From the NCBI RefSeq assembly GCF_963676935.1, contig NZ_OY781470.1, positions 1,832,680-1,896,679 on the forward strand: a stretch of 64,000 nucleotides of DNA, in the 5' to 3' direction. Both the position numbers and the translations under genes were made by a program. How positions within the stretch are numbered: position 1 is the stretch's first letter; each line of letters starts with the position of its first letter. Shown piece by piece: positions 8,200 to 50,299 of this stretch. The notes beneath the pieces are model-generated. The model ran no database searches and had not been told where the DNA came from. It saw only the letters and a program-made list of their open reading frames with translations. The DNA is from Halarcobacter sp. (lineage in GTDB: Bacteria; Campylobacterota; Campylobacteria; Campylobacterales; Arcobacteraceae).

Positions 8200-9117
8200 A
8201 TGGATATACTAATTTTTGTAGTTGCAATGACTGCTTTGATTTATGGAGCAGATTTTATTATTGAACAAAGTGAAAGAATTGCTCTTCACTATAATATTTC
8301 ACCTTTTGTAATTGGTGCAACCTTAATTGCGCTTGGAACATCACTTCCTGAAATGGCAGTATCAATTTCAGCTTCAAGTAAAGGTAGTGGAGATATTGCT
8401 GTTGCAAATGTAATAGGAAGTACAATATTTAATATAGCTTTGGTATTAGGTGCAGTATTTTTAATCTCTAAAAAAATCAAACCAGATAGAGATCTTTTTG
8501 CTAAAGACTCAGCATGGGCTTTATTTCCTATTTTAGTTTTCATTCTAATGGGTATAGATGGAAAATTAAATTTTGTTGATGGTTTGTTATTTGTAATTTT
8601 AATGATTGGGTATTTAATGTTTCTTGTCACTTCAAATCAAGTTGAAGAACTTAATGAAGATTTAAAAAAAGAAAAATTCGCTTGGGGTAAAAGCTCTATA
8701 ATGTTACTAATAGGTTTTGTCTTAACTATTGCTGGAGCAGACTTTGCAATTGATAGTGCAGGAAATATAGCTAGAAGTTTTGGAATTAGTGAATGGGTTA
8801 TTGGTCTGTTTTTAGTTGCTTTTGGTACCTCTTTACCAGAATTGACAATCTCTATTAAATCAGCTTTAAATAATAATGCAGATTTAGCAATTGGTAATAT
8901 TATTGGTTCAAATGTTGCAAACTTCACAATGGTACTAGGTATAAGTTCAATGGTAAATCCATTAAATGTAGACTTAAGTGCAAACTTTTTTGATATTGCA
9001 GCTGCATTTATCTTATCACTGATGTTAGTATTTATAACAGCTAATAAACTTTATAATAAAAGTGCAGGTATAGTTTTAATGGTAGTGTTAGGATTAGTTA
9101 TTCAAAATAGCCTATAA
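8200..9117 (+). CDS. Calcium/sodium antiporter, YrbG family
   Basis: 305 residues, about ten membrane helices arranged as an inverted repeat. Each half carries the alpha-repeat ion-binding motif: 'ATLIALGTSLPEMAVS' in the first half and 'LFLVAFGTSLPELTIS' in the second, each followed by a 'NVIGS' / 'NIIGSN' element. These are hallmarks of the CaCA superfamily. Encoded immediately after ybeY, with no gap. Confidence 0.93.
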   Translation: MDILIFVVAMTALIYGADFIIEQSERIALHYNISPFVIGATLIALGTSLPEMAVSISASSKGSGDIAVANVIGSTIFNIALVLGAVFLISKKIKPDRDLFAKDSAWALFPILVFILMGIDGKLNFVDGLLFVILMIGYLMFLVTSNQVEELNEDLKKEKFAWGKSSIMLLIGFVLTIAGADFAIDSAGNIARSFGISEWVIGLFLVAFGTSLPELTISIKSALNNNADLAIGNIIGSNVANFTMVLGISSMVNPLNVDLSANFFDIAAAFILSLMLVFITANKLYNKSAGIVLMVVLGLVIQNSL

Positions 9118-44097: not shown

Positions 44098-45348
44098 TTA
44101 AATTATATGATCGTCTTTTCTAGGTTGTGGTAAGATTAAATTTAAAACTATACCTGTAATAGCACCAAGCCCAATACCAGAAAAAGGAACACCACCAAAA
44201 TTAAATGTCATTCCACCAATAGAAAATACTAAAATTATTGAAATAATAATAAGATTTCTAGGACAATTGAAATCTATATTTGCTCTAACTAAAGTTGAGA
44301 TACCAACACTTGCTATAATTCCAAATAAAAGTAACATAATTCCACCCATAACAGGAACAGGAATAGTAGCTAAAATCCCACCTAATTTACCTACAAATGC
44401 AAGTACAACAGCTGCAATAGCTGCCCAAGTCATAATTGCTGGATTATATGCTTTTGTAACAGTAACAGCACCTGTTACTTCAGAATATGTAGTATTTGGT
44501 GGACCACCAAATAGTGCTGCAACTGAAGTTGCTAATCCATCACCTAATAATGTATTTTTAAGACCTGGTTTTTTTAGATAATCATTTTTTGTTACATTTG
44601 AGATAGCTAACATATCACCAATATGCTCAATAGCTGGTGCAATTGCAATTGGAAGAATAAATAAAATTGCTTGCCAATTAAATTCTGGTGCTGTAAAACT
44701 AGGAATTGCGAACCATGCAGCATTTGATACAGGAGAGAAATCAACTACTCCCATGAAAATTGCAACAATATAACTTATAATAATAGCTCCTAAAATTGGT
44801 ACTAATCTAAAAATACCTTTAGCTAACAAGGAAATAAACATCATTGAGAATAAAGCAACCATTGAAATTATAATTGCATTTTCAAAAGGTACAATAACAA
44901 TTGAACCATCACCTGATTTTCCCATTGCCATATTCACTGCAACAGGAGATAAGATTAGTCCAATAGATATTACTACTGGTCCTACAACAGTTGCTGGTAA
45001 TAGTTTATGAATAAATTGGTCACCTTTTGCTCTAATTAAAAAACTTAGTACAACATATAATAAACCAGCGGCAATAAGTCCTGACATAGTTGCAGCAATA
45101 CCCCAAGTTTTAACACCATATGAAATTGGCGCAATAAATGCAAATGATGAAGCTAAGAATATTGGTGGAACTGCACCTCTATTTACTAATTGAAAAACTA
45201 AAGTACCAATACCAGCTGTGAATAATGCTACATTAGGATCAAGTCCTGTTAAAATAGGAACTAATACTAATGCACCAAAAGCAACAAATAAGAATTGAAT
45301 ACCGATGATTGAGTCTTTGACTCTAAAATTGTAATCTGTAGGTTTCAT
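44098..45348 (-). CDS. uraA: Uracil permease (NCS2 family)
   Basis: 416 residues, about 14 membrane helices. NCS2 motifs: the glutamates in 'PIAIAPAIEHIGDMLAISN' and 'GGPPNTTYSEVTGAVTVTKAYNP' (the N-T-T-Y-S-E element is typical of uracil/xanthine permeases). The divergent neighbour is uracil phosphoribosyltransferase, which supports uracil as substrate. Confidence 0.92.
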   Translation of the reverse strand: MKPTDYNFRVKDSIIGIQFLFVAFGALVLVPILTGLDPNVALFTAGIGTLVFQLVNRGAVPPIFLASSFAFIAPISYGVKTWGIAATMSGLIAAGLLYVVLSFLIRAKGDQFIHKLLPATVVGPVVISIGLILSPVAVNMAMGKSGDGSIVIVPFENAIIISMVALFSMMFISLLAKGIFRLVPILGAIIISYIVAIFMGVVDFSPVSNAAWFAIPSFTAPEFNWQAILFILPIAIAPAIEHIGDMLAISNVTKNDYLKKPGLKNTLLGDGLATSVAALFGGPPNTTYSEVTGAVTVTKAYNPAIMTWAAIAAVVLAFVGKLGGILATIPVPVMGGIMLLLFGIIASVGISTLVRANIDFNCPRNLIIISIILVFSIGGMTFNFGGVPFSGIGLGAITGIVLNLILPQPRKDDHII

Positions 45349-45475
45349 ACGTCCTCTTCGTGTAGAAATTTAGACTTAAATAATATCTAAACTAACATAA
45401 GAGATAAGGTAAATAAATGTGTAATTTATAAGCAATTTTTCGATAACATAAAAAAAATTCTAAAAGTGAGATAAT

Positions 45476-46096
45476 ATGTATAAAGAGAGTACAAATATTG
45501 TAGTTAAACATCTTGTAAATAGATTAAGAGATGTTAGAACTGCATCAAATGAATTTAGATTAACAATTGAAGAGATTTCAAGAATTGTTGCATCTGAAGC
45601 ATTAAATGATTTTAAAACAATTACAACTAATATTGAAACATGGCAAGGACCTTTAGATGTTGAGATGATAGAAGTGCAAAAACTTGTTTTAATACCTATT
45701 TTAAGAGCTGGAGAACCAATGTTAACAGGTATTTTAAGAACATTACCATATGCTAGAAGTGGATTTTTAGCTATGAAAAGGGATGAAGAAACAGCAGAGA
45801 GTAAACTTTTTTATGAAAATGTACCACCATTAGAAGATAAAACTGTTTTACTTCTTGATCCAATGGTAGCAACTGGAGGATCGTTAATTGATGGTATCTC
45901 TTATTTAAAATCTAAAGGAGCTAAAAAGATTATCTCTTTAAATATTTTAGGTGCTCCTGAAGGGGTAAATGCAGTAGTTGAAGCACACCCTGATGTTGAT
46001 ATCTATATTGCTCAAATAGATGATAGATTAGATGAAAATAAATATATTAGACCTGGTCTTGGTGATGCAGGAGATAGAGCATTTAATACAAACTAA
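45476..46096 (+). CDS. upp: Uracil phosphoribosyltransferase
   Basis: 206 residues. 'PILRAGEPMLTGILRTLPYARSGF' and the PRPP motif 'VLLLDPMVATGGSLIDGI' are clear, ending 'YIRPGLGDAGDRAFNTN'. Converts uracil and PRPP to UMP. Divergent from uraA over a 127-base shared intergenic region; its last 4 bases overlap the convergent epimerase gene. Confidence 0.97.
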   Translation: MYKESTNIVVKHLVNRLRDVRTASNEFRLTIEEISRIVASEALNDFKTITTNIETWQGPLDVEMIEVQKLVLIPILRAGEPMLTGILRTLPYARSGFLAMKRDEETAESKLFYENVPPLEDKTVLLLDPMVATGGSLIDGISYLKSKGAKKIISLNILGAPEGVNAVVEAHPDVDIYIAQIDDRLDENKYIRPGLGDAGDRAFNTN

Positions 46097-46854
46097 GGAT
46101 AATCTAGTGGATTTGGGTATTTATACCTAAATCCTAATCTTTCAATTTTACTTCCATCTATAATTCTATTTCCATAATCTTTTTTATCTTTAAAAATAAT
46201 CTCTTTAAAACCAAATTTTTTAGCATTATGAGTATAAATCTCTTTTTTTGTTGGATGGTTTTTTGAACATAAATTAAAAATACCATTTATATTATTTTCA
46301 ATTACAAATTTTACTGCCTCAATTACATCATCTCTATGAACATAATTAATTTTTGAATCTTCACAGTCTAAAGTTTTCCCTGCAAAATATCTCCCAGCAA
46401 CTCTATTATATCCCATAAGACCACTACATCTGAAGATTACATCTGTTTTTGATTTAACTAATTCTTCTGCTTTATATACTAAAGATGAATTTAACTCATT
46501 TAATGTTGAATTTTCATTATATATTCCCTCTTTATTAGAATATATTGAAGTTGAACTAATAAATATCACTTTTTTATTTTTTGATTTAATATTTGAGTAA
46601 ATTTTATCCAAAAAGCCAATATAATTTTTTGATTTTCTTGGAGGAAAGTTTATAAAAATAAAATCTGATTCTAATAGAGTATCTATATTTTCCAAGTTGT
46701 CTTCATCTAATAAGTAAGGGGATACCCCCTCACTTATCATAGATTTTTCTTTTTCTAAATCTCTAATAGATACTTTTACATTATAATCATTTTTTAACTC
46801 TTTTGCTAAAGCTAGCCCTAACCATCCAGTACCTAAAATAGAAAAAGTTTTCAT
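46093..46854 (-). CDS. NAD(P)-dependent epimerase-like protein (YeeZ type)
   Basis: 253 residues. 'FSILGTGWLGLALAKELK' is a Rossmann dinucleotide motif in the G-x-G-W-L-G form of the YeeZ group; 'VIFISSTSIYSNKEG' and 'NYVHRDDVIEAVKFVIE' are extended-SDR blocks. The usual YxxxK is present only loosely ('SLVYKAEELVKSK'). Substrate unknown. Starts one base into the channel gene stop. Confidence 0.82.
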   Translation of the reverse strand: MKTFSILGTGWLGLALAKELKNDYNVKVSIRDLEKEKSMISEGVSPYLLDEDNLENIDTLLESDFIFINFPPRKSKNYIGFLDKIYSNIKSKNKKVIFISSTSIYSNKEGIYNENSTLNELNSSLVYKAEELVKSKTDVIFRCSGLMGYNRVAGRYFAGKTLDCEDSKINYVHRDDVIEAVKFVIENNINGIFNLCSKNHPTKKEIYTHNAKKFGFKEIIFKDKKDYGNRIIDGSKIERLGFRYKYPNPLDYP

Positions 46855-47657
46855 TACTCTTTTTTACCTCTTAATTCTTGAACCTCTTCCCTTAAAACTT
46901 TTATTTCAGAAAGTAAAATATCTAATTTTTTACTATCTTCATGCATCTCATCATGAAAATCAGATTCTTGTATTTTTTGCATCTCTCCAATAATAACTGC
47001 AACAAAAAGATTGAAAAATACAAAAGCTGCTATAATAACAAAAGAAACGAAATATATCCATGCCCAAGGATAAACCTCCATAGCTTCATACATTACATCA
47101 GTCCAATCTTCAAATGTTAAAACTCTAAATAGTGTTAACATTGATACTAAAAAGTCTTTCCAAAGACCTGATGGTAAATCACTAAAATAAAAATTACCTA
47201 CAATCGCATAAATATAAAAGATTATAAACATTAATATTACGATATCAATAATTGAAGGGATAGCTCTTATTAACATATCTATTATTGCTTTTAATTCTGG
47301 TCGTGCGGTAAAGAGTCTTAGAACTCTAAATACTCTAAGTACCCTTGCAACAGCAGCAAAGCCTGATTGTTCTAAAGGTAAAAGAGTAATTACTACGATA
47401 ACAAAATCAAAAACATTCCAGCCTGATTTAAAAAAATTAATAAACTTTTTTTCTGCAACCATTTTTATAGCTATTTCAAATACAAAATATATAGTTACAA
47501 AAGAGTCAGCAAATGTTAAAAATAAAGCATAATGTTCTTCAACTTCACCAATTGTTTTAAAACCTAATACTGAAGCATAGGCTAAGATAATAAAAGTTGT
47601 TAAATTAGAAAACCATCTCGCATCTCTAATCTCTTCAATCTTTTGAACAATACCCAT
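46854..47657 (-). CDS. Single-domain voltage-gated cation channel (BacNav type) with Cav-like filter
   Basis: 267 residues, six membrane helices. S4 has arginines at every third position (R105, R108, R111, R114 in 'RVLRVFRVLRLF'). The pore loop 'LTLFRVLTFEDWTDVMYEAM' gives selectivity filter TFEDWTD (181-187). S6 is 'FVFFNLFVAVIIGEMQ', and a C-terminal coiled coil (about 240-265) should hold the tetramer. NavAb of Arcobacter butzleri has the filter TLESWSM; here acidic residues occupy the positions corresponding to E177, S178 and M181, like the calcium-selective engineered CavAb (TLDDWSD). Calcium permeation is an inference. Confidence 0.9.
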   Translation of the reverse strand: MGIVQKIEEIRDARWFSNLTTFIILAYASVLGFKTIGEVEEHYALFLTFADSFVTIYFVFEIAIKMVAEKKFINFFKSGWNVFDFVIVVITLLPLEQSGFAAVARVLRVFRVLRLFTARPELKAIIDMLIRAIPSIIDIVILMFIIFYIYAIVGNFYFSDLPSGLWKDFLVSMLTLFRVLTFEDWTDVMYEAMEVYPWAWIYFVSFVIIAAFVFFNLFVAVIIGEMQKIQESDFHDEMHEDSKKLDILLSEIKVLREEVQELRGKKE

Positions 47658-47663
47658 TTTAAG

Positions 47664-48050
47664 TTATCCTTTTAAAATTGAATAAGTCAAAGTAAGCCAT
47701 CCAATAATCATTAAAGTTCCACCTATTGGAGTAATAGCACCTAATACAGGAATATTTAAAATAACTAAAAGATATAATGAAAATGAGAAGATTATCATAC
47801 CAATTAAAATCAACCAAGCTGCAACTATAGCTTTCTTTGACTCAGGCTTTAAATAGATTACAAAAGAGACTGCAAAAAGTCCTAATGTATTATAAAATTG
47901 ATATTCTACACCTGTATGATATACAACAAGCATTTGAGAGCTTACAATTGATTTTAAACCATGCGCTCCAAAAGCACCTATAGCTATTGCCAAAGCCATC
48001 ATTATTGAAGCTATTGTTAAAAATTGATTTACTTTTTTATTATTTGTCAT
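47664..48050 (-). CDS. DUF423-family membrane protein
   Basis: 128 residues with four membrane helices. 'ALAIAIGAFGAHGLKSIVSSQMLVVYHTGVEYQFYNTLGLF' (spread over about 19-58) and the closing 'ITPIGGTLMIIGWLTL' are the conserved DUF423/YgdD pattern. Function unknown. Six bases upstream of the channel gene on the same strand, so probably co-transcribed. Confidence 0.88.
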   Translation of the reverse strand: MTNNKKVNQFLTIASIMMALAIAIGAFGAHGLKSIVSSQMLVVYHTGVEYQFYNTLGLFAVSFVIYLKPESKKAIVAAWLILIGMIIFSFSLYLLVILNIPVLGAITPIGGTLMIIGWLTLTYSILKG

Positions 48051-48141
48051 TTATACTTCCTAAATTTTTTTGGAAGTATATCAAAAAATTTGTTGAAAAT
48101 TTATTTAAGTTCTTTTATAAAATTTTTTATAAAAGCTATTG

Positions 48142-48420
48142 TTATTTTTTTTCTTTCTTCTTAGAAGAAAAACCTGCACCTTTTTTTTCTTTCTTCTTTA
48201 AATCTAACTCATCCATTAATTCTCTAAAATCCATACCCTCTTGATTCATCTTAGCAAAACAGGCTGCAACAGCTGCGATAGCATTAGGAACCTCTTCTTT
48301 TTTCTTATATGCTTGGATATTTTTTTCACTAACTTTTATTAAAGCAGTAAATTTAGGAATTGTTAATTCAGCATCAAGTAATAATTTTTTAAATTCTATA
48401 AATGTCATATTTTTGTCCAT
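48142..48420 (-). CDS. Small HTH-like protein with lysine-rich tail
   Basis: 92 residues. Residues about 6-55 ('FIEFKKLLLDAELTIPKFT', 'LIKVSEKNIQAYKKKEEVP') have the spacing of a Cro/XRE-type five-helix DNA-binding domain. The tail carries two KKKEKK blocks and would bind nucleic acid non-specifically. The assignment is by pattern only. A perfect dyad at 48484-48502 lies upstream and could be an autoregulatory site. Confidence 0.6.
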   Translation of the reverse strand: MDKNMTFIEFKKLLLDAELTIPKFTALIKVSEKNIQAYKKKEEVPNAIAAVAACFAKMNQEGMDFRELMDELDLKKKEKKGAGFSSKKKEKK

Positions 48421-48483
48421 ATATAATTAAGATTGGAATATTATACAATATATTTACTTGGATTTTTAAAAAAACAGTAGCAA

Positions 48484-48502
48484 ATATGTATAAAATACAT
48501 AT
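48484..48502. promoter_or_regulatory. 8+3+8 perfect dyad upstream of HTH-like gene
   Basis: ATATGTAT at 48484-48491 and its reverse complement at 48495-48502 around AAA, 64 bases before the start of the HTH-like gene. Candidate operator; AT content raises the chance of coincidence. Confidence 0.4.
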
Positions 48503-48517
48503 TTTATAGATAATTAG

Positions 48518-48544
48518 TAGAAAATAGGTTAAACCTATTTTCTA
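48518..48544 (-). terminator. Terminator hairpin of the purine-salvage operon
   Basis: 13-bp perfect stem (48518-48530 with 48532-48544) around a single central A; on the minus strand it contains the stop codon of the phosphoribosyltransferase gene. Confidence 0.65.
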
Positions 48545-48988
48545 TTTTACATCAACTTCCCAGAAGAAATCGATCCAACCTTTAGCTTCTTTCACTGCAA
48601 AATCAGGTTGTAAACATGCAGTCTTTTTATAAAATATTGTAGCAAGTTTAAATTCTACATTAGGAAATTTTTCTGCTAAGATTTTTAAAATCTCTTCCAT
48701 AGTTTCTCCAGAGTCAACAATATCATCAATTAATAAAACTCTTTTTGCATGGGAAACATCAGGTATATTAAAAATATTAAAACTATTTAGTTTTAATTCT
48801 CCCTCATAATGAATAGAATTTAATGAATATAAGTTTCTCATATCCAAAGCCTGAGACATCAAATGAGCAAGAGTTAATCCTCCCCTTGCTATTGCTAATA
48901 AAATATCTGGTTCATAATCCCTACACTTATCAACTAAAACTTGAGTATCTTTTGCAAACTCGTCGTAACCATAATAATATTTTTCCAA
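48542..48988 (-). CDS. Purine phosphoribosyltransferase
   Basis: 148 residues. PRPP motif 'RVLLIDDIVDSGETMEEIL' and an N-terminal 'DILLAIARGGLTLAHLMSQAL' like xanthine/hypoxanthine-guanine phosphoribosyltransferases. Ends 'WIDFFWEV', a family feature. The upstream gene on the same strand, 9 bases away, is a purine-type permease, so uptake and salvage are coupled. Preferred base (xanthine, guanine or hypoxanthine) not determined. Confidence 0.88.
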   Translation of the reverse strand: MEKYYYGYDEFAKDTQVLVDKCRDYEPDILLAIARGGLTLAHLMSQALDMRNLYSLNSIHYEGELKLNSFNIFNIPDVSHAKRVLLIDDIVDSGETMEEILKILAEKFPNVEFKLATIFYKKTACLQPDFAVKEAKGWIDFFWEVDVK

Positions 48989-48997
48989 TTAACTTCC

Positions 48998-50299
48998 TTA
49001 TAAAATAAATGCTAATGCACTTATAAATGTAATAACAAAAATTCCAAGATTTAAATCTGAAGTTTGTTTTTTAGCGAACTTGATAATAGTAAAGATAAGA
49101 AACCCTGCTGCTATACCATTTGTAATAGAAAAAGTCAAAGGCATTAAAATTACAATTAAAAAAGCACCTGCACTTGTTGCTAAATCTGAATCTTCAAAGT
49201 TTATTTTACCTAATTCTGTAAACATCAATACTCCAACTACCACTAATACTGGATAGATTGCATTTCCAGGTATTGCTTTAAATAATGGCAATAAAAATAA
49301 TGTTGTTACGAAAAACATTGCAGTAAATACTGCTGTTAAACCTGTTCTTCCACCCTCTTCTACACCACTTGCACTCTCAATAAATGCTGTTGTTGTTGAT
49401 ACTCCAAGTAAAGAACCTGCTGTTGTTGCAATAGCATCTGCTTCTAAAGTTCTTTGTAAAGACTTATCATCTTTATTATTCTCTTGAAATAGATTTGCTC
49501 TTGTTCCAACACCAGTTAATGTTCCTAAGGTATCAAACATATCTGTAATTAAAAATGTAATAATAACAGGCAATAAAGATAGTGTCAATGCACTTGCAAT
49601 ATCAAGTTCAAAAATAATTGGGCTAATTGATGCAGGAGCAGAAACTACACCTTCAGGAAGTTTACCTAATCCAAAACTCCAACCAACAATCGAAGTAATA
49701 GCTATAGCTAAAATAAATGCCCCTCTAACTCTATATGCATATAAAGTGAATGAAAGAACAAGTCCTAAAACACCTAAAAGAACAGTTGGATTTGAAAAAT
49801 CTCCAAGTGAAACAAGAGTAGCTGGATTATCAACAATCATACCCATTTGCTTTAAACCAATAAATGCAATAAATGAACCAATACCAGCACTAATAGCTCT
49901 TCTTAAATTCATAGGAATTGAAGTCATAATCCAAACCCTAAAGTTGGTAAAAGATAAAATCATAAACAATATACCAGATAAGAATACTATACCTAATGCA
50001 GTTTGCCAAGGTATTTTCATACCAAGTACTAATCCATATGAGAAATATGCATTTAGTCCCATACCTACTGACATTGCAATTGGAGTATTTGCCCATAAAC
50101 CACTAAATAGTGTTGCAAGAATAGTGATTAAAGCAGTTGCTGTAACAACTGCATCCATTGGTAATCCTGCATCTGCAAGAATAAATCCATTTACAGGAAC
50201 AATATACATCATTGTTAAAAAGGTAGTAAACCCTGCACTAAGCTCGGTACCTACACTTGTGTTATGTTCTTTTAGTTTAAACATAATCTTGTCCTTCAT
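48998..50299 (-). CDS. AzgA-like NCS2 purine permease
   Basis: 433 residues, about 13 membrane helices. 'TELSAGFTTFLTMMYIVPVNGFILADAGLP', 'GMGLNAYFSY' and 'DMFDTLGTLTGVGTRANLF' are features of the adenine/guanine/hypoxanthine permease branch; 'STTTAFIESASGVEEGGRTGLTAV' carries the second substrate-site glutamate. Operon with the phosphoribosyltransferase. Confidence 0.93.
   Translation of the reverse strand: MKDKIMFKLKEHNTSVGTELSAGFTTFLTMMYIVPVNGFILADAGLPMDAVVTATALITILATLFSGLWANTPIAMSVGMGLNAYFSYGLVLGMKIPWQTALGIVFLSGILFMILSFTNFRVWIMTSIPMNLRRAISAGIGSFIAFIGLKQMGMIVDNPATLVSLGDFSNPTVLLGVLGLVLSFTLYAYRVRGAFILAIAITSIVGWSFGLGKLPEGVVSAPASISPIIFELDIASALTLSLLPVIITFLITDMFDTLGTLTGVGTRANLFQENNKDDKSLQRTLEADAIATTAGSLLGVSTTTAFIESASGVEEGGRTGLTAVFTAMFFVTTLFLLPLFKAIPGNAIYPVLVVVGVLMFTELGKINFEDSDLATSAGAFLIVILMPLTFSITNGIAAGFLIFTIIKFAKKQTSDLNLGIFVITFISALAFIL

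Follow-up and report, generated by a model that had tools for sequence, protein, structure and literature searches.

Among single-domain bacterial channels of the BacNav type, a group named AnclNav carries more acidic residues in its selectivity filter than the TLESW of the canonical channels. According to PMC7041947, this group branches apart from the Bacillus and NavAb-like channels, occurs in bacterial groups that also have NavAb-like genes, and has a predicted ancestral filter of TLE(D/S)WTD. One member, NavPp of Plesiocystis pacifica, has the filter TLEDWTD. Its currents follow the Na+ reversal potential, its PCa/PNa is 0.308, and Ca2+ blocks it with low affinity (PMC7041947). It is reported there to prefer Na+ over Ca2+, Sr2+, K+, and Cs+. 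The same report describes no gain of Ca2+ permeability when the NavPp filter is changed to TLEDWSD or TLEDWAD, and a gain of divalent selectivity with D4G. Two further AnclNavs with NavPp-like filters, from Halomonas elongata and Teredinibacter turnerae, are recorded there as giving no current.

CavMr of Meiothermus ruber (TLEGWVD) is a native Cav with a PCa/PNa above 200 (PMC7041947). Its high Ca2+ selectivity is reported to need both Gly at position 4 and Val at position 6, the Asp at position 7 being dispensable. G4D takes PCa/PNa down to 7.7, and CavMr carrying the NavPp filter TLEDWTD has a PCa/PNa of 13.8 and discriminates less well against K+ and Cs+ (PMC7041947). Between P2 and S6, CavMr has a cysteine-bearing extension, L6, with a disulfide (PMC10120453). 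As cited in PMC7041947, the filters TLEDWSD and TLEDWAD turn NavAb and NaChBac calcium-selective; that paper writes these artificial Cav filters so in one section and as TLDDW(S/A)D in another. What, then, does an Asp at position 4 signify? In the account of PMC10120453, it goes with calcium-selective channels or with Na+ conductances that are blocked by millimolar Ca2+. Phe at position 2 is known from some BacNavs and AnclNavs, and in NavAb the mutation L176F is described as causing no Ca2+ block by itself (PMC10349818).

The window analyzed here is a stretch of 64,000 nucleotides from Halarcobacter sp. Its channel gene, at 46854..47657 on the minus strand, encodes 267 amino acids, with not one Cys among them. 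A preliminary description had placed a BacNav-type channel at exactly these positions; the open reading frame, which opens with ATG and is intact, agrees with it, as do the Ion_trans domain and the BacNav fold, and only the strand had been missing. The Pfam model Ion_trans covers residues 14-232 (E = 4.6e-45), and no NCBIfam model matches at E up to 0.001. One six-helix domain, the S4 arginines, a re-entrant filter, and a C-terminal helix, as read from the protein and its predicted structure, make it a member of the single-domain BacNav/Ion_trans voltage-gated cation channels. Relatives at 78-89% identity come from records titled Arcobacter, Halarcobacter, Campylobacteraceae, Campylobacterales, and, in one case, just “bacterium.” Against six relatives, dN/dS is 0.022-0.109, which means strong purifying selection and argues that the gene is maintained.

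The four voltage-sensor arginines of S4, R105, R108, R111, and R114 (47316..47345, minus strand), align with NavAb R99, R102, R105, and R108, and all stand in invariant columns of a 40-sequence alignment. An AlphaFold model built from 40 aligned sequences has a mean pLDDT of 84.2 and a pTM of 0.63. By pairwise alignment, the pore-lining segment S6 comprises residues 199-221, including Asn216 (46995..47063, minus strand). The cytoplasmic C-terminal helix, residues 229-266 (46860..46973, minus strand), aligns with the C-terminal tail of NavAb and is predicted to be continuous with S6, a single helix spanning residues 199-266 in the model.

The best solved relative by fold is NavAb (5yua; Z 20.5, rmsd 3.0 over 227 residues, 33% identity), and CavAb (5klb; Z 19.9, 5.5 A over 261 residues) and NaChBac (6vwx; Z 19.7, 2.5 A over 224 residues) score close by. 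Matches less than 1 Z apart were treated as ties, and CatSper (7eeb_C), in row 50, still has a Z of 19.0. With values tied in this way, the fold tells only the superfamily, and choosing a subfamily by fold rank was abandoned. Kinship with animal Cav channels was likewise dropped. T-type Cavs of animals are the best PDB matches by sequence, but their top ranks come from the sum of several domains: taken singly, no domain of the top match exceeds 76 bits, versus 161 for the single-domain NavRh (4dxw).

The filter, TFEDWTD, occupies residues 181-187 (47097..47117, minus strand). All 55 Campylobacterota orthologs read, from different genomes and with the window's own counted, have this same filter, a figure drawn from whole-protein genome searches with motif-seeded relatives left out, FEDWTDVM having served as a search pattern. 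Together with the dN/dS values, this identity argues that TFEDWTD is no chance occurrence. The preliminary description had called the filter acid-rich and similar to that of animal calcium channels, which holds: it has three acids, and P2 aligns in the same register, W-x-D-V/I-M-Y-x-x-M, as domain I of the animal Cav3 channels. Are there also, as had been claimed, acids at all three positions that distinguish CavAb from NavAb? At two of them there are, E183 standing at the wild-type NavAb Glu177 (so that CavAb's E177D is not reproduced) and D184 at S178. At the third, M181, the claim depends on where a gap is placed. Alignment with NavAb puts M181 opposite a gap and Asp187 opposite Gly182, and alignment with NaChBac puts a one-residue gap directly behind the filter Trp. 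Since the channel has one residue fewer after the filter, D187 coincides with the M181D site of CavAb in just one of several ways to place the gap, and the argument from three acids is weakened accordingly. This one-residue difference also shows that copying CavAb positions onto such a channel is unsafe.

The surroundings of the filter were tabulated for 276 proteins, 232 of them different. A filter was read in all but L252, L253, L254, and L151, the last of which has a K+-channel signature in place of a filter match. Three residues ahead of the filter, the window channel has Arg178 (47124..47126, minus strand) where NavAb-like channels have Gln. Arg stands there in all 159 of the 159 different [FL]EDWTD proteins, and in 158 of these the filter Trp and the S6 Trp are 15 residues apart, the remaining one (L212) having no such Trp. 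The window channel shares this short spacing, 15 versus 16 in NavAb-like channels, across its P2 helix, placed by the AlphaFold model at residues 185-195 (47073..47105, minus strand). All TLESWS[ME] and TFESWSM proteins have Gln before the filter and a spacing of 16, except that L261 has no Trp there. Gln also precedes the filter in every ESW-filter protein save two from Idiomarinaceae (L040 and L046), whose filters, TFESWTA and TFESWTQ, are nested in the TFEDWTD clade. Both Asp residues are gone in these two, with Arg and the spacing of 15 kept, apparently by a separate loss of filter charge.

The tree holds 67 rows: 62 proteins hand-picked from the 276, the window channel, the NavAb ortholog of its own genome, and three references. 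NavAb-like, NaChBac, and NavCt rows make up one set of 23 (branch values 100/98), which includes the long-branched L250 and L254. The window channel belongs to a set of 36 rows (100/100) together with the FEDWTD channels of Halomonas, Marinomonas, and other Gammaproteobacteria, which are 37-47% identical to it among the rows of the 40-sequence alignment and likewise have Arg and a spacing of 15. Also in this set are two TLEDWTD rows (L070 and L163) and rows with TFESWAT, TFESWTA/Q, and TFDNWAH. A third set (100/99) consists of seven further TLEDWTD rows; one more, L213, has no firm position. With NavAb and CavAb, the window channel has in common the fold (Z about 20), the S4 charges, the S6 Asn, and Glu at 177, and with CavAb the acid at 178. 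It nonetheless differs from NavAb in its clade, in having Asp184 for Ser178, and in the residue missing after the filter, and its identity of 31-34% and its place on the far side of the 100/98 branch lend no support to closeness to NavAb. TLESW, Gln, a spacing of 16, and a place in the NavAb clade define the canonical NavAb-like channels, and it has none of the four. Its clade instead fits the published AnclNav group, matched by that group's description and by relatives in Halomonas, the genus of the H. elongata AnclNav that was assayed. Its filter fits the predicted ancestral one, with only position 2 (Phe) differing. The channel is therefore less new than first implied, its kind having already been described as AnclNav.

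What would such a channel conduct? The acid-rich filter invites the name “natural calcium channel,” yet a published channel with six of the same seven filter residues behaves otherwise. The step from acid count to calcium selectivity fails on NavPp, which is Na+-permeable and Ca2+-blocked with TLEDWTD and whose TLEDWSD and TLEDWAD mutants are reported without Ca2+ permeability (PMC7041947); by this analogy, pore sequence alone makes no calcium channel. What sequence and model do show is a six-helix subunit with a complete voltage sensor and a TFEDWTD pore, in a clade apart from the NavAb-like and Bacillus channels. We think it probable that the protein forms homotetrameric voltage-gated cation channels of the AnclNav branch, which, going by NavPp, pass mainly Na+, have appreciable Ca2+ permeability, and are partially blocked by Ca2+. 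NavPp and the window channel are both single-domain and voltage-gated, and in a comparison by filter rather than scaffold they differ only by Phe for Leu at position 2, both having Asp, not Gly, at position 4.

In the proposed mechanism, four subunits would assemble into a tetramer, S4 would move upon depolarization and thereby open the S6 gate, and cations would be selected by four Glu183 and four Asp184 arranged in a ring. If NavPp is a guide, mainly Na+ would pass, with appreciable Ca2+, and millimolar external Ca2+ would bind at the acid-rich mouth and cause a partial block. The channel would thus act as a second, calcium-sensitive conductance alongside the cell's NavAb ortholog, and one may speculate that the Na+ it admits serves motility or pH homeostasis, with tuning by Ca2+. 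Among the points that weigh against this reading are that TLEDWTD on the CavMr scaffold gives a PCa/PNa of 13.8, that TLEDWSD and TLEDWAD make NavAb and NaChBac calcium-selective, and that Asp at position 4 may mean calcium selectivity. Some degree of calcium permeability would be in keeping with both the 13.8 of CavMr and NavPp itself, which passes some Ca2+.

The last two of these points (PMC7041947 and PMC10120453, respectively) speak for a native calcium-selective Cav on the CavAb pattern, in which Glu183, Asp184, and Asp187 would each form a ring and so provide successive Ca2+ sites. The three filter acids and the P2 register of Cav3 domain I would suit such a channel as well. It is nevertheless unlikely, given that PMC7041947 reports NavPp to be Na+-permeable and Ca2+-blocked with either TLEDWTD or TLEDWSD, that CavMr drops to 7.7 with G4D and can dispense with its position 7 Asp, and that the difference in length leaves the match of D187 to M181 uncertain. 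Nor does the known native Cav provide a close model. CavMr shares the T-x-E-x-W-x-D frame and is AnclNav by description, but the window channel has Asp184 for Gly4, Thr for Val6, and a short P2-S6 loop, and without cysteine it has no counterpart of the L6 extension.

A slightly smaller chance belongs to a weakly selective channel for Na+, K+, and Ca2+ alike, comparable to CavMr with the NavPp filter; the PCa/PNa of 13.8 and poorer discrimination against K+ and Cs+ reported for that construct (PMC7041947) favor the idea, as does the fact that the likeness to NavPp rests on filter and not scaffold, while NavPp's own preference for Na+ over Ca2+, Sr2+, K+, and Cs+ (PMC7041947) tells against it. 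A canonical Na+-selective NavAb-like channel whose filter has drifted would have the BacNav fold and NavAb as its best fold match, as found, but is very improbable in view of the same filter in 55 of 55 orthologs read, the different clade, Arg178 and a spacing of 15 in place of Gln and 16, and the separate NavAb-like gene that 23 of 104 Arcobacteraceae genomes have as well.

How might the AnclNav-type channel behave in a recording? A210, A211, and A220 in S6 stand, by pairwise alignment, at the positions of NaChBac Gly219, Thr220, and Gly229. Since T220A and G229A are reported to slow inactivation of NaChBac (PMC7041947), slow inactivation is predicted here, and it would make recording easier. 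Near kin may be silent in the same assay, no current having been obtained from the two AnclNavs whose filters are NavPp-like. The open-access literature yielded no recordings with currents for this channel or any FEDWTD channel. The strings FEDWTD, FESWAT, and TFEDW were absent from the open-access papers searched as text, a body that excludes most subscription papers.

The genome of the window, a single contig of 3.1 Mb, has four Ion_trans genes. A second channel with TLESW, which the preliminary description had proposed to look for, is among them: the NavAb ortholog L002, with the filter TLESWSM. The other two, L003 and L004, carry the K+-channel signature TVGYGD, L004 with a TrkA_N domain in addition. 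One cell thus offers a Nav and an AnclNav-type channel for side-by-side comparison.

The survey of related filters that had likewise been suggested found TFEDWTD throughout the Campylobacterota orthologs read and also in Gammaproteobacteria. Within Campylobacterota, 72 of 397 sampled genomes match the channel at E up to 1e-10. Split by identity, these fall into orthologs at no less than 68%, present in 21 of the 72, and other matches, none of which exceeds 39%. By hand count among 104 Arcobacteraceae genomes, 51 have the FEDWTD ortholog, 39 a NavAb-like channel, 23 both, and 67 either. The NavAb-like Campylobacterota channels read, part of those found, have TLESWSM in 20 of 20 cases. A sample of 274 Gammaproteobacteria genomes gave 83 matching places in 74 genomes, with TFEDWTD at 29, TLEDWTD at 14, TLESWSM at 32, TLESWSE at 2 (L217 and L228), TFESWSM (L218), TLEGWST (L250), and TFDNWAH (L216) at 1 each, and no filter reading at 3. 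TLEGWST has Gly at position 4 like CavMr, yet is long-branched within the canonical set; TFDNWAH is a long-branched row inside the window's clade. With 43 D-filter places in 38 Gammaproteobacteria genomes (hand count) in addition to the Campylobacterota orthologs, the D-type filter is widespread. A plasmid search found 32 matching records, all below 60% identity.

Halomonadaceae hold a further variation. An ortholog is present in 44 of 101 genomes (proteins L282-L325), and these differ from the window channel in that 25 have TFESWAT with Gln and a spacing of 16; the other 19 have TFEDWTD with Arg and a spacing of 15. On a tree of the part from voltage sensor to S5, in which many forks are weak, the filter state switches at least 7 times. 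A single clade of FESWAT rows is rejected (p-AU 8.4e-5, for a group named after a tree had been seen). Whatever the distance of the rest, pore identity averages 0.52-0.57 for unlike filters and 0.88-0.99 for like ones. The clearest pair is L290 (FESWAT) and L307 (FEDWTD). Over 3.8 kb, the two differ by 8.3% upstream, by 5.9% downstream, and by 7.0% and 6.0% in the parts of the gene outside the filter tract, but within that tract by 26% (42 of 162 sites). Against the rest of the gene, this dip has a Fisher p of 7.5e-11 for a tract picked after the dip had been seen. In this tract, L290 has more in common with other FESWAT genes (0.885 at best) than with L307 (0.741). A second dip in the same pair, down to 0.55 in 60-base windows, lies about 100-150 bases upstream of the gene. 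The unlike pairs L285/L288 and L286/L304 have no clean edges at the pore. Exchange of a pore tract of about 160 bp by recombination is well supported in L290/L307 and may be inferred in the other pairs.

Could the pore be a cassette that switches ion preference? We raise this only tentatively, from the sequence patterns, and on balance doubt it. The exchangeable unit would be about 160 bp long and comprise the end of P1, the filter, and P2. In one state, Arg, [FL]EDWTD, and a short P2 would handle divalents; in the other, Gln, an ESW-type filter, and a P2 longer by one residue would be of sodium type. Halomonadaceae would swap the cassettes, and Arcobacteraceae would often keep both as paralogs, so that one Arcobacteraceae cell would pair a Nav (NavAb) with a partner that either carries calcium or is gated by it. 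The Halomonadaceae swaps are natural filter exchanges between close orthologs and bear on whether filter or scaffold sets the Ca2+/Na+ preference, a question only partly answered by the swaps between CavMr and NavPp. No paper on a pore swap appeared among the titles listed in the open-access literature.

The neighborhood of the channel varies within the lineage. A DUF423 gene ends 6 bases ahead of the channel start, and the channel overlaps the start of an SDR-like (Epimerase) gene by one base. Of 65 Campylobacterota loci, which are partly redundant, 43 have DUF423 upstream and 30 have the SDR gene downstream. The 22 without DUF423 have none of the window's neighbors and include five of the six records titled Sulfurospirillum. 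Around the channel, at 44098-50299 of the window, are two nucleobase permease genes and genes for a uracil and another phosphoribosyltransferase. A functional unit was considered and dropped, since the neighbors concern nucleobase salvage and permeases; they are taken as synteny in part of the lineage. A promoter scan was uninformative, with 37 sites versus 32.8 (sd 5.0) in shuffles. A gene for an exchanger of the Na_Ca_ex family lies at 8200-9117 of the window, 38 kb from the channel. It was rejected as a sign of calcium signaling, such a gene being present in 11 of 14 control genomes.

Some genomes carry two FEDWTD channels. In Aliagarivorans (L146 and L149) they are neighboring, opposed genes, and in Thiovulum (L027 and L028) they are on different contigs. 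Another channel (L047), from a record titled Candidatus Polarisedimenticolaceae (Acidobacteriota), sits among the Gammaproteobacterial ones. This record is perhaps mislabeled or a mixed bin; the sample of its phylum and the Gammaproteobacteria sample have at least 7 genomes in common.
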